A stretch of DNA of 48,187 nucleotides, taken from assembly GCA_027306585.1 (NCBI GenBank), contig DAHUZJ010000076.1, forward strand, positions 1 to 48,187. Direction: 5' to 3'. This document shows positions 21,328 to 27,569 of this stretch, in pieces; position 1 is the first letter of the stretch, and the number at the start of each line of letters is the position of its first letter. The translations under genes were made by a program, and so were the position numbers. A model generated the notes under the pieces. The model did no database searches. It worked only from the letters and a program-made list of their open reading frames with translations, and had not been told where the DNA came from. This DNA is from Acidimicrobiaceae bacterium (GTDB taxonomy: Bacteria > Actinomycetota > Acidimicrobiia > Acidimicrobiales > RAAP-2).

Positions 21328-21499
21328 CACACGGCCGCCGGTTCGACGCCGAGCTCGGCGTGCAGATGGAGATCGAGTCAGCGGACTCCTTCGGTGACGA
21401 GCACCAGGTCGTGGCCCACGAGCACCTCCGGCTCGCCGCAACCCGCAGGGAGCGGCCGCCCTGCTGCGATGATCGTCCGCGCAGTCCCCTCTGCCCTCG

Positions 21500-21572
21500 T
21501 GGAGACGATGGGGCTCGAACCCACGACCTCCTGCGTGCAAAGCAGGCGCTCTTCCAACTGAGCTACGTCCCC
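21500..21572 (-). tRNA. tRNA-Ala (TGC anticodon)
   Basis: 73 nt read on the minus strand: acceptor GGGGACG/CGTCTCC, D arm GCTC-AGTTGGAA-GAGC, anticodon arm CCTGC-TTTGCAC-GCAGG with anticodon TGC, and T arm GTGGG-TTCGAGC-CCCAT. Discriminator A; CCA is not encoded. No integrase or direct repeat lies at its 3' end. Confidence 0.96.
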
Positions 21573-22554: not shown

Positions 22555-23016
22555 TCAGGTCCAGGTGGCCTCGCCGGCGGGCTGCCGGGTCGCCACGTTG
22601 ATGCGGTTGAAGAGGTTGCTGGTCCCGATCCACAGCACCAGACCGGCGAGCTGACGCTCGTCGAAGTGCCGGGCCGCCTCCTCCCACACCTCGTCGGGCA
22701 CGGGATCGGACCGATCGGCGAGGCGGGTCATCGCCTCGGCCAGCGCCAGGGCAGACCGCTCGGCGTCGTCGAACCAGGGTGCCTCCCGCCAGGCGGCGAT
22801 GGCGAAGAGCCGCTCGTCGGACGCGCCGGCCTTCTTTGCCGCCAGCGCCCCCGAGGTGACGCAGAAGCTGCAGCCGTTGAGCTGGCTGGTGCGCAGGTGG
22901 ACCAGCTCCATCGTCGTGCGCGGCACCCCTGCCGAGAACGCCGACTTCACCAGGCCCTGCACCGCTTCGGTCGCCGCCGGGAGCACCTTGCCGGGGTTGG
23001 TCATGCGTGGGTTCAT
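22555..23016 (-). CDS. AhpD-like carboxymuconolactone decarboxylase family protein
   Basis: 153 aa CMD/AhpD fold. The redox-type motif is LNGCSFCVTSGALAAKKAG (CxxC followed by S-G rather than H). LVHLRTSQ precedes it, and DDAERSALALAEAMTRLAD and LVLWIGTSNLFNRINVATRQ follow. It probably acts as a thiol peroxidase or disulfide partner. It is divergent from an ECF41 sigma factor gene, a known association for this sigma group, and carries an ECF41-type promoter. ATG 23016 has a GAGGAGG site. Confidence 0.9.
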   Translation of the reverse strand: MNPRMTNPGKVLPAATEAVQGLVKSAFSAGVPRTTMELVHLRTSQLNGCSFCVTSGALAAKKAGASDERLFAIAAWREAPWFDDAERSALALAEAMTRLADRSDPVPDEVWEEAARHFDERQLAGLVLWIGTSNLFNRINVATRQPAGEATWT

Positions 23017-23048
23017 CGGTTCCTCCTCGTCATGCGGTCTGGTCGCCC

Positions 23049-23075
23049 GGTCACATCGGCGCGGGCTGCTCCGTC
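23049..23075 (+). promoter_or_regulatory. ECF41-type promoter of the sigma factor gene
   Basis: GGTCACA (23049-23055), 16 nt, then CGTC (23072-23075), matching the ECF41 motif TGTCACA...CGTC at six of seven -35 bases. It points to the sigma gene start at 23111, so it implies autoregulation. Confidence 0.7.
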
Positions 23076-23083
23076 AACTCCAT

Positions 23084-23110
23084 GACGCACCAGAGCGAGA
23101 GGATGTGACC
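23084..23110 (-). promoter_or_regulatory. ECF41-type promoter of the AhpD-like gene
   Basis: On the minus strand GGTCACA (23110-23104), 16 nt, then CGTC (23087-23084). The boxes and spacing are identical to those of the divergent sigma-gene promoter. The AhpD-like start lies 68 nt downstream. Confidence 0.7.
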
Positions 23111-24034
23111 GTGACCGGTTGGACGGGTGAGCGACCGGCCTCCCAGGACTGGGTGACCGAGGCCTTCGAGCAGAGCCGCCCGCGCCTCCGCGCCGTCGCC
23201 TACCGCATGCTCGGCTCGACAGCCGACGCGGACGACGCCGTGCAGGAGACGTGGCTGCGCCTGCACCGGGCCGACCCGGCCGCCATCGAGAACTTCCAGG
23301 GGTGGCTGACGACGGTGGTCGCCCGCATCTGCCTCGACGCCCTCCGAGGGCGGCGGGCTCAGCCGGAACCGGACCTCGAGGACGGAACCGACGAGAGCGC
23401 CGACCAGGACGTGCTGCTCGCCGACTCGATCGGGCCGGCGCTCATGGTGCTGCTCGACCGGCTGGCGCCGGCGGAGCGGCTGGCCTTCGTGCTGCACGAC
23501 TTGTTCGCCGTGCCCTTCGACGAGATCGCCCCGGTGGTCGGGCGCTCCCCGGCGGCGACCCGCCAGCTCGCCAGCCGGGCCCGGCGGCGCGTACAGGGCG
23601 GCGGCGGCGGCGAGGCGCTGCCCGGCCCGGGGACGCGCCAGCGCCAGCAACAAGTGGTCGACGCCTTCTTCGCCGCCGCGCGGGGGGGCGACTTCGCGAG
23701 CCTGCTCGCCGTGCTGGACCCCGACGTGGTGGTGCGGGCAGATCGTGTTGCCGTCGACCTGGCAGCGCGACGGGCAGCGGGCGCCGGCGCAGCCGGCGGG
23801 GGTCCCCGCCGGCTGGAGGGAGAGGTCCACGGGGCGGAGGCCGCGGCGCAGCTCTTCGCCGGGTGGGCGCGGGGTGCCCAGTCGGCGGTGGTCGACGGCC
23901 GGGCGGGCGCGGTGTGGGCTCCCGGCGGCCACGTCCGGTCGGTCTTCGTCCTCCACGTCGTGGGCGACCGGATCGTGACCATCGACGTCATCGCCGACCC
24001 CGACCGCATCGGGCGCATGGCGCTCACCTTCTGA
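23111..24034 (+). CDS. ECF41 / SigJ-like sigma factor with SnoaL-like C-terminal domain
   Basis: 307 aa alternative sigma factor. Sigma-2 reads LRAVAYRMLGSTADADDAVQETWLRL, shown in part by DADDAVQETWLRL. Sigma-4 reads LAPAERLAFVLHDLFAVPFDEIAPVV. A C-terminal domain of about 130 aa (VVDAFFAAARGGDFASLLAVLDPDVVV to ADPDRIGRMALTF) is SnoaL-like and replaces a separate anti-sigma factor; DPDRI sits where ECF41 proteins have NPDKL. GTG 23111 fits the GAGAGG site; GTG 23105 is possible. It is divergent from its expected AhpD-like target. Confidence 0.92.
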   Translation: MTGWTGERPASQDWVTEAFEQSRPRLRAVAYRMLGSTADADDAVQETWLRLHRADPAAIENFQGWLTTVVARICLDALRGRRAQPEPDLEDGTDESADQDVLLADSIGPALMVLLDRLAPAERLAFVLHDLFAVPFDEIAPVVGRSPAATRQLASRARRRVQGGGGGEALPGPGTRQRQQQVVDAFFAAARGGDFASLLAVLDPDVVVRADRVAVDLAARRAAGAGAAGGGPRRLEGEVHGAEAAAQLFAGWARGAQSAVVDGRAGAVWAPGGHVRSVFVLHVVGDRIVTIDVIADPDRIGRMALTF

Positions 24035-26315: not shown

Positions 26316-26495
26316 GTACGAGCAGCGCACCTGCCCCCGTGCACGGGGGGCCGCGCCGAGCCCGGCCAGCTGGCGGGCGCTGCGCCCACCGGACCACTGG
26401 TCGCAGGCCACAGGTAGAGTGAGATGCTGTACGTCCCCTGGCCGACCTCCGGACCGAGCCTCGGGGCGCACCGCCGACCGAGGAGCGCGGCTGCC

Positions 26496-27569
26496 ATGAA
26501 CATGACGCTGTCGAAGCGGGGCGACTACGTGATGCGCTCCGCGATCTCGCTGGCACGGGCCTTCGACTCCGGCCGCCCACGCAAGATCCGGGAGGTCGTC
26601 GCCGACACCGAGCTGCCGCGGACCTTCGCCTCGCAGATCCTCGCCGACCTCGTGCGGGCTGGCTTGGCGGTGTCGAAGGCGGGCCGGGACGGCGGGTACC
26701 GGCTTGCCCGCCCCCCCGAGAAGATCAGCGTCCTGGAGGTGGTGGAGGCGGCCGAGGGGCCACTCCGGGCCGAGCGGTGCGCCCTCGGCGACGGGCCGTG
26801 CCGGTGGGAGTCGGTCTGCCCTCTGCACGAGACGTGGGTGGCCGCCACGGCCCGATTGAACAGCCTCCTGGCCGAGACCAAGCTCGCCGAGATCGCGGCA
26901 CGCGACGCCGCCATCGAGGCGGGGCTCTACGAGCCGCCGGCGGACTCCCACCGCTCGCCCGCCGTCACCCTGGCCGTCGACGATGCCGTCCACGTCGAGC
27001 TGGGGGCCCGCGCCGTGGCCGGCGCGCTGACTCGCTCGGCGATCGACGAGGCATGGCTGGTGGCCGCGGCAGTCGAGACCGCCGTCCTCACCGGCGGCGC
27101 CCACGCGAACCCGCTCGACCGGTCGGACCAGGCCCCCGAGGTGACGGAATGGACGCTCGACCGCCTCGGCCGCGCGGCGGCAGACGGGGCCGCGCGGTAC
27201 GCGCTCGGGTGGCGGCTCGACGGGACGGGCGGGACCTGTCGGTGCGAGGGGGAGCTATCGGTGCACGCCGTGGACGACGAACGGTGCGAGATCCGGCTGG
27301 CCGGCAGCTGGCACCAGCACGTACCCGGTGGGGCCAGCCGGGCCGGGGTCCTCGAGGAAGCGGCCCAGCGGACGGTGCGCCGCTTCCTCCGCCAGGTTGC
27401 ACGGCACCTCGAAGAACGGCCGGTCGAGGCGGCAGTCGCCGCTGAACCGGCCGGCGCGGCAGGGGCGGGGGCCGGCGCGGCGACGGTAGCGGCACCTGGG
27501 GCGGCGACCCCAAGGCGGCGGTCGACGGCACCCACCCGACAGCCGCGCCGGACCAGCCGGCTGGCGTAG
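26496..27569 (+). CDS. Rrf2-family regulator with Fe-S type Cys set and long C-terminal extension
   Basis: 357 aa, against about 150 for ordinary Rrf2 proteins. Residues 1-85 are the winged helix (MTLSKRGDYVMRSAISLARA, TFASQILADLVRAGLAVSKAG). Cys 95, 102 and 108 with His 111 (C-X6-C-X5-C-PLH) resemble the [2Fe-2S] ligands of IscR (C92, C98, C104, H107). The last ~200 residues hold an extra domain with CRCEGELSVHAVDDERCEIRLAG, then a low-complexity Ala/Arg tail. ATG 26496. A redox or Fe-S status sensor is likely. It is divergent from the MFS gene. Confidence 0.85.
   Translation: MNMTLSKRGDYVMRSAISLARAFDSGRPRKIREVVADTELPRTFASQILADLVRAGLAVSKAGRDGGYRLARPPEKISVLEVVEAAEGPLRAERCALGDGPCRWESVCPLHETWVAATARLNSLLAETKLAEIAARDAAIEAGLYEPPADSHRSPAVTLAVDDAVHVELGARAVAGALTRSAIDEAWLVAAAVETAVLTGGAHANPLDRSDQAPEVTEWTLDRLGRAAADGAARYALGWRLDGTGGTCRCEGELSVHAVDDERCEIRLAGSWHQHVPGGASRAGVLEEAAQRTVRRFLRQVARHLEERPVEAAVAAEPAGAAGAGAGAATVAAPGAATPRRRSTAPTRQPRRTSRLA

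Follow-up and report, generated by a model that had tools for sequence, protein, structure and literature searches.

A 62-bp mirror-symmetric element between a CMD/AhpD-like gene and the divergently oriented gene of a SigJ-like ECF sigma factor probably constitutes, judging from its sequence, a single sigma-dependent bidirectional promoter, to which polymerase would bind in one orientation or the other but not both, and which would be read by the sigma factor of the adjacent gene. The element lies in the window, by which we mean the whole stretch of 48,187 nt that was analysed, a contig of the draft genome of an Acidimicrobiaceae bacterium. The original prediction had placed the motif GGTCACA-N16-CGTC once in each direction between the AhpD-like and sigma genes, and this proved exact: GGTCACA-TCGGCGCGGGCTGCTC-CGTC matches at 23049-23075 (+) and GGTCACA-TCCTCTCGCTCTGGTG-CGTC at 23110-23084 (-). 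These are the only two matches in the window, against a chance expectation of 0.10, and two matches together occurred in 0 of 100 shuffles of the window. The published ECF41 promoter, TGTCACA-N16-CGTC (PMC3426412), is thus found on both strands, with one -35 base differing (G-initial). The features of the locus, in order of position, are as follows.

22555..23016, minus strand: CMD/AhpD-like protein, 153 aa, with a CxxC motif (CSFC), the putative divergent target gene (PF02627, E 7.7e-16; TIGR00778)
23022..23028, minus strand: Shine-Dalgarno GAGGAGG of the CMD gene (from the sequence)
23049..23110, no strand: predicted mirror-symmetric (face-to-face) bidirectional promoter element, 62 bp (from the sequence; geometry kept in relatives)
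23049..23055, plus strand: -35 GGTCACA of the sigma-ward promoter, P_sig (ECF41 -35 TGTCACA, PMC3426412, except base 1)
23072..23075, plus strand: -10 CGTC of P_sig (spacer 16 bp, as published)
23075, minus strand: predicted start (G) of the CMD mRNA; coincides with the final base of the P_sig -10 (same basis as the sigma mRNA start)
23076..23083, no strand: 8-bp gap between both -10 elements, presumed shared melted region (gap 8 in 37 of 53 mirror loci)
23084, plus strand: predicted start (G) of the sigma mRNA; coincides with the final base of the P_cmd -10 (8-nt distance in sigma-H, start G in PMC3426412, conserved G in single promoters)
23084..23087, minus strand: -10 CGTC of the CMD-ward promoter, P_cmd (from the sequence)
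23097..23102, plus strand: Shine-Dalgarno GAGAGG of the sigma gene, 8 nt before GTG 23111 (from the sequence)
23104..23110, minus strand: -35 GGTCACA of P_cmd (from the sequence; relatives place the -35 likewise)
23111..24034, plus strand: SigJ-like ECF sigma factor, 307 aa, with sigma2, sigma4 and a C-terminal NTF2/SnoaL fold (profile, structure and fold searches)

P_sig and P_cmd face each other and interleave, and since their -10 elements are 8 bp apart, each promoter lies inside the region transcribed by the other. The -35 of P_cmd sits not in free intergenic DNA but between the Shine-Dalgarno sequence and the likely start codon of the sigma gene, GTG 23111; GTG 23105 is also possible as a start, yet it is 2 nt from the Shine-Dalgarno. 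Such placement is common: of 33 strict mirror elements, nearly all have the sigma start codon 0-5 nt beyond the -35 of the partner promoter. ECF41 genes neighbour a CMD gene with CxxC, an oxidoreductase or an epimerase (collectively COE), and the CMD gene of the window is such a neighbour, which bears out the companion expected from the original prediction.

To establish how far the arrangement recurs, we scanned 102 related loci, found through similarity to the sigma factor, similarity to the CMD protein or the element itself, allowing up to 3 mismatches over 20 fixed positions and any gap from 0 to 30. The mirror was present in 53 of them, with a gap of 8 in 37, 9 in 9, 10 in 1 and 11 in 4, together with 2 outliers, while the control scan found it in 1 of 2040 letter-shuffled regions. 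These relatives were sampled by likeness to the window's sigma factor, itself from one draft genome, and 7 of the 53 mirror loci entered via the element, the remaining ones via sigma or CMD similarity. They are spread over Actinomycetota, Chloroflexota/Thermomicrobia, Dormibacterota and Rhizobiales, and divergent CMD-sigma loci with the 8-bp gap occur in Thermomicrobiales, Microlunatus, Rhodococcus, Bradyrhizobium, other Rhizobiales and Chloroflexia. Unbiased scans with the pattern GTCACA-N16-CGTC-N{0,30}-GACG-N16-TGTGAC, covering 396 genomes from the phylum and 150 from a single family, returned 16 elements, with gaps of 8 (10 elements), 9 (2) and 11 (4), and zero control matches. Back-to-back pairs were found in 5 of the same 396 genomes, all of one family, with gaps of 10, 12, 13, 18 and 26. 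The face-to-face gap, at 8, 9 or 11, is thus constrained, whereas the back-to-back gap, spread over 10-26, is not. A strictly invariant gap is nevertheless rejected by the gaps of 9-11 bp. The exactly matched pair had been taken as neat evidence of the regulon; what holds of this is the constrained mirror geometry, the core and the gap being the conserved properties, while the identity of the two -35 7-mers is no special feature, as 10 of the 33 strict mirrors share it.

One alternative is that the short intergenic region holds two independent ECF41-type promoters in chance proximity, whose overlap results from compaction without any functional coupling. PMC3426412 does handle the two promoters as separate, and relatives with back-to-back pairs or single promoters imply that the two can be uncoupled. 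Compaction alone, however, predicts no fixed gap, and the face-to-face gap stays at 8-11 in independent families and phyla although 0-30 was allowed, while that of back-to-back pairs drifts; we therefore consider this explanation unlikely. The full mirror is missing from roughly half of the related loci, the sigma-ward promoter standing alone in 20 and the divergent one alone in 10. The latter 10 would suit a reading in which the CMD direction alone is a working sigma target and the sigma-ward half a remnant, the sigma gene being expressed otherwise, and the CMD gene was indeed the only target detected in the tested species (PMC3426412). That twice as many relatives retain the sigma-ward promoter alone, and that both halves are intact in mirror loci across phyla, makes this reading very improbable.

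Divergent gene pairs often share an operator, and one could also speculate that GTCACA...TGTGAC, which forms a long inverted repeat, is the binding site of a separate dimeric repressor or activator rather than a promoter pair. Yet each half is a full bipartite -35/-10 with a 16-bp spacer, relatives have single, sense-oriented halves ahead of sigma or CMD genes, and no separate regulator gene was seen adjoining the element in the window, so that we regard an operator as very improbable. A CRP-like operator in particular was rejected on the inverted order of its half-sites (TCACA...TGTGA) and the wrong spacing. The reading of the element as one bidirectional promoter is thus preferred, and with it the earlier claim that the sigma factor drives both directions, which remains the best reading of the sequence.

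The predominance of a gap of 8 can be related to where transcription would start. Structures of sigma-H show G-11, T-10 and T-9 as the -10 bases, with a preference for G or C at -5 (PMC6411747), a numbering that leaves 8 bases between the -10 and +1, and ECF41 transcription starts have been mapped to G (PMC3426412). As the gap of 8 has the same length as this stretch from -10 to start in ECF promoters, either promoter would start transcription on the last -10 base of its partner. In CGTC-N8-GACG the -10 and start positions would accordingly overlap reciprocally on opposite strands, the divergent starts predicted from the -10 positions, 23075 and 23084, lying 9 bp apart; in sigma-H numbering, and as judged from the sequence and a related sigma factor, the +1 base pair of one promoter would be the -9 base pair of the other. 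The bidirectional reading thus predicts start sites to the single base, although gaps of 9-11 require a shifted start, which counts against this reading. Among 42 promoters of the family that stand singly outside a mirror, some of which may be eroded mirrors, A is found at -8 in 64%, G at -5 in 60%, G at -2 in 83% and G at +1 in 62%; in the 8-bp mirrors A at -8 reaches 100%, T at -1 97% and G at +1 100%, and the commonest centre is GC. The palindromic positions of the mirror are those already favoured in single promoters (A at -8, G at -5, G at +1), and we infer that an ordinary promoter of this family, in its start region, already goes halfway towards matching the complement of its -10.

As a potential mechanism, RNA polymerase carrying the sigma factor would bind in either orientation, with GTCACA outside and CGTC inside, and both orientations would melt one central bubble with the consensus CGTCA-NN-GC-NN-TGACG. 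RNA would begin at the G pairing with the final -10 base of the partner promoter. The rightward RNA would yield the sigma factor, giving positive autoregulation, and the leftward RNA the CMD/AhpD-like enzyme. There would be room for one polymerase at a time and the same holoenzyme would serve both directions; the DNA should therefore dictate how much of each mRNA is made relative to the other, this ratio should remain constant as sigma activity rises, and transcription of the enzyme gene would limit the self-amplification of sigma. The fused SnoaL-type domain presumably gates sigma activity, and the inducer may be peroxide or electrophile stress, to judge from the CxxC of the enzyme and from the pattern known for COE loci. 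In E. coli, bidirectional promoters compete little at basal activity, competition appearing only when one direction is strongly active (PMC12825309); by analogy, exclusion may matter mainly in the induced, strongly active sigma state. The description of the circuit as a switch finds no support in the analysis. If the reading is right, a short symmetric DNA couples sigma expression to its sole target via one shared open complex, and the mirror would offer a natural test case for polymerase competition with one dedicated sigma factor, as well as a compact circuit part where an output ratio must stay fixed.

The loci described for ECF41 in PMC3426412 (Wecke et al. 2012) are the closest precedent. 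Its Table 4 lists 55 divergent ECF41-COE loci, where the motif precedes 36 of the ECF and 41 of the COE genes, and the paper names the CMD gene as target and describes factors that control a single locus. Loci of the class <ECF< >COE> share with the window GTCACA, the 16-bp spacer, CGTC, the CMD target, the fused C-terminal domain and the single-locus regulon; the window differs in its interleaved promoters at a fixed 8 bp, its G-initial -35 and a sigma factor without WLPEP. The spacing or overlap of the pair is not described in the covered parts of that paper. Relative to those parts, the frequent presence of the motif before both divergent genes is already published, and what is new is the tight face-to-face geometry, which the original prediction had not noted, the link to the start sites, the -35 in the spacer between Shine-Dalgarno and start codon, and glyoxalase/VOC partners. 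Bidirectional promoters of housekeeping sigma factors (Warman/Grainger), with divergent starts 7-25 bp apart and 10 bp common (PMC12825309, PMC10268837), resemble the window in their pseudo-symmetric DNA, the reciprocal overlap of -10 and start, and mutually exclusive binding, which in the window is predicted. They rest, however, on a near-symmetric sigma70 -10, often with weak -35s, whereas the window has a stringent ECF -35 and -10 on each side, a sigma factor that is itself the product of one of the divergent genes, and conservation across phyla. No mirror element is reported for SigJ or SigG1 in the literature covered, and no mirror or face-to-face ECF41 promoters are described in the open-access full texts searched, a set outside which most subscription papers fall. 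From the sequences, the mirror looks like a real, hitherto undescribed form of two-way promoter that recurs in distant bacteria, and if so, the remark that both genes have the motif would become a defined regulatory device.

A wider proposition is that these elements form a dedicated class of ECF bidirectional promoters, quasi-palindromic from -12 to +1, in which the initiating G of either promoter comes from the -10 of the other and the gap is held at 8-11 bp by selection, locking the sigma:target mRNA ratio and limiting feedback, in at least 3-4 phyla and with several target enzymes; for this proposition as a whole we see the chances as evenly balanced. The divergent partners do differ, comprising CMD, glyoxalase/VOC and NAD-binding epimerase genes, so that the promoter, not one enzyme, is the conserved part. 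Glyoxalase/VOC genes, a partner type outside the published COE list, stand at mirror promoters at L039:1573-1917, L011:1059-1415, L054:1379-1717 and L078:2982-3326. At L105:1016-1130, a second mirror-like half element adjoins the first, and a single CMD gene is preceded by two divergent promoters in succession, which may reflect local duplication.

The motif had also been expected to recur upstream of other sigma targets. In the 2.98-Mb draft genome there is one more exact GGTCACA-N16-CGTC beyond the pair, and with the first base free (GTCACA-N16-CGTC) there are 4 sites, 2 of them the pair; the reversed control pattern has 2 matches in the same genome. Of the two further sites, that on contig C26 lies close to the upstream end of the oppositely oriented ftsH, and that on C56 lies just beyond, and antisense to, a ribonucleotide-reductase-like gene. 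Neither shows the start-region consensus and their number equals that of the reversed control; both are therefore taken as chance and a wider regulon was rejected. The C26 site, though probably chance, is nonetheless the sole further candidate that this genome offers as a target; this GGTCACA-N16-CGTC (C26:14395; L126:1500-1526) stands, in its own direction, ~230 nt upstream of a small ORF (L126:1756-2001) that looks WhiB-like by eye. Judged by motif alone, the regulon is confined to its own locus. Recurrence at other targets, which was thus not found above chance level, is an ill-posed test, because published ECF41 factors control one locus (PMC3426412).

The sigma factor matches PF04542 and PF08281, and SnoaL_2 weakly by sequence (Pfam E 0.78). 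Its best solved structure is M. tuberculosis SigJ (PDB 5xe7, E 8e-34), and Foldseek with the AlphaFold model (mean pLDDT 86.5, pTM 0.54) gave full-length matches to SigJ and SigG1 as well as matches to ketosteroid isomerases and designed NTF2 folds. These fold matches suggest that the C-terminal SnoaL-type domain is real despite the weak Pfam score, upholding the fused domain of the original prediction; given the pTM and low whole-chain TM-scores, the placement of the domains relative to each other is tentative. SigJ and S. tsukubaensis SigG1 (ECF56, PDB 7qh5), the best fold matches, have the same order of sigma2, sigma4 and SnoaL_2. SigJ is also the best sequence match, with ~34% identity over the fold alignment, the window factor differing in a linker that has PEP without WL. 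The assignment to ECF41 fits the type of promoter motif but less well the protein: its sigma2-sigma4 linker reads RRAQPEP, WLPEP, the motif that marks ECF41 in this linker, is absent, and the best NCBIfam match, SigJ (PRK09636), scores 214.4 bits, below the curated cut-off of 271 bits. The WLPEP regular expression matches 2 of the 102 relatives. A DGGG-type motif, taken here as one of three conserved motifs of the ECF41 C-terminal extension, is absent from the window sigma factor and most of the 102 relatives. With WLPEP missing and the SigJ cut-off not reached, the sequence places the factor in a SigJ-related, WLPEP-less sister clade, and the mirror would point to this clade as one with glyoxalase-type targets.

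In a bootstrap-free FastTree tree of 119 sigma proteins with many weak forks, a 100-row group that includes the window lacks WLPEP in all but one row, and a 19-row group holds nearly all WLPEP. The mirror is scattered across the 100-row group, early branches included, and a strict pattern scan found no mirror at the loci of the WLPEP-rich group; with so many weak forks, ancestry of the mirror within the 100-row group is likely rather than certain. The nearest relatives of the window sigma factor, from the same family (L009, and L010, identical in sequence to L052), have a back-to-back pair instead, and thus the arrangement changed within the family and the mirror is not indispensable. In L009, L010 and L052 a -10 element lies ~11-13 nt ahead of the sigma ATG, which suggests near-leaderless sigma mRNAs. 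Five loci of one actinobacterial family (L130-L134, family f53) carry ECF41-type sigma genes, mostly with WLPEP, and back-to-back pairs of variable spacing. Elsewhere in the window, the N-terminal part of an ORF at 26424-27569 (+) resembles, by eye, an Rrf2-type regulator, and the sole tRNA detected, tRNA-Ala (TGC) at 21499-21572 (-), lies ~1 kb from the CMD gene.
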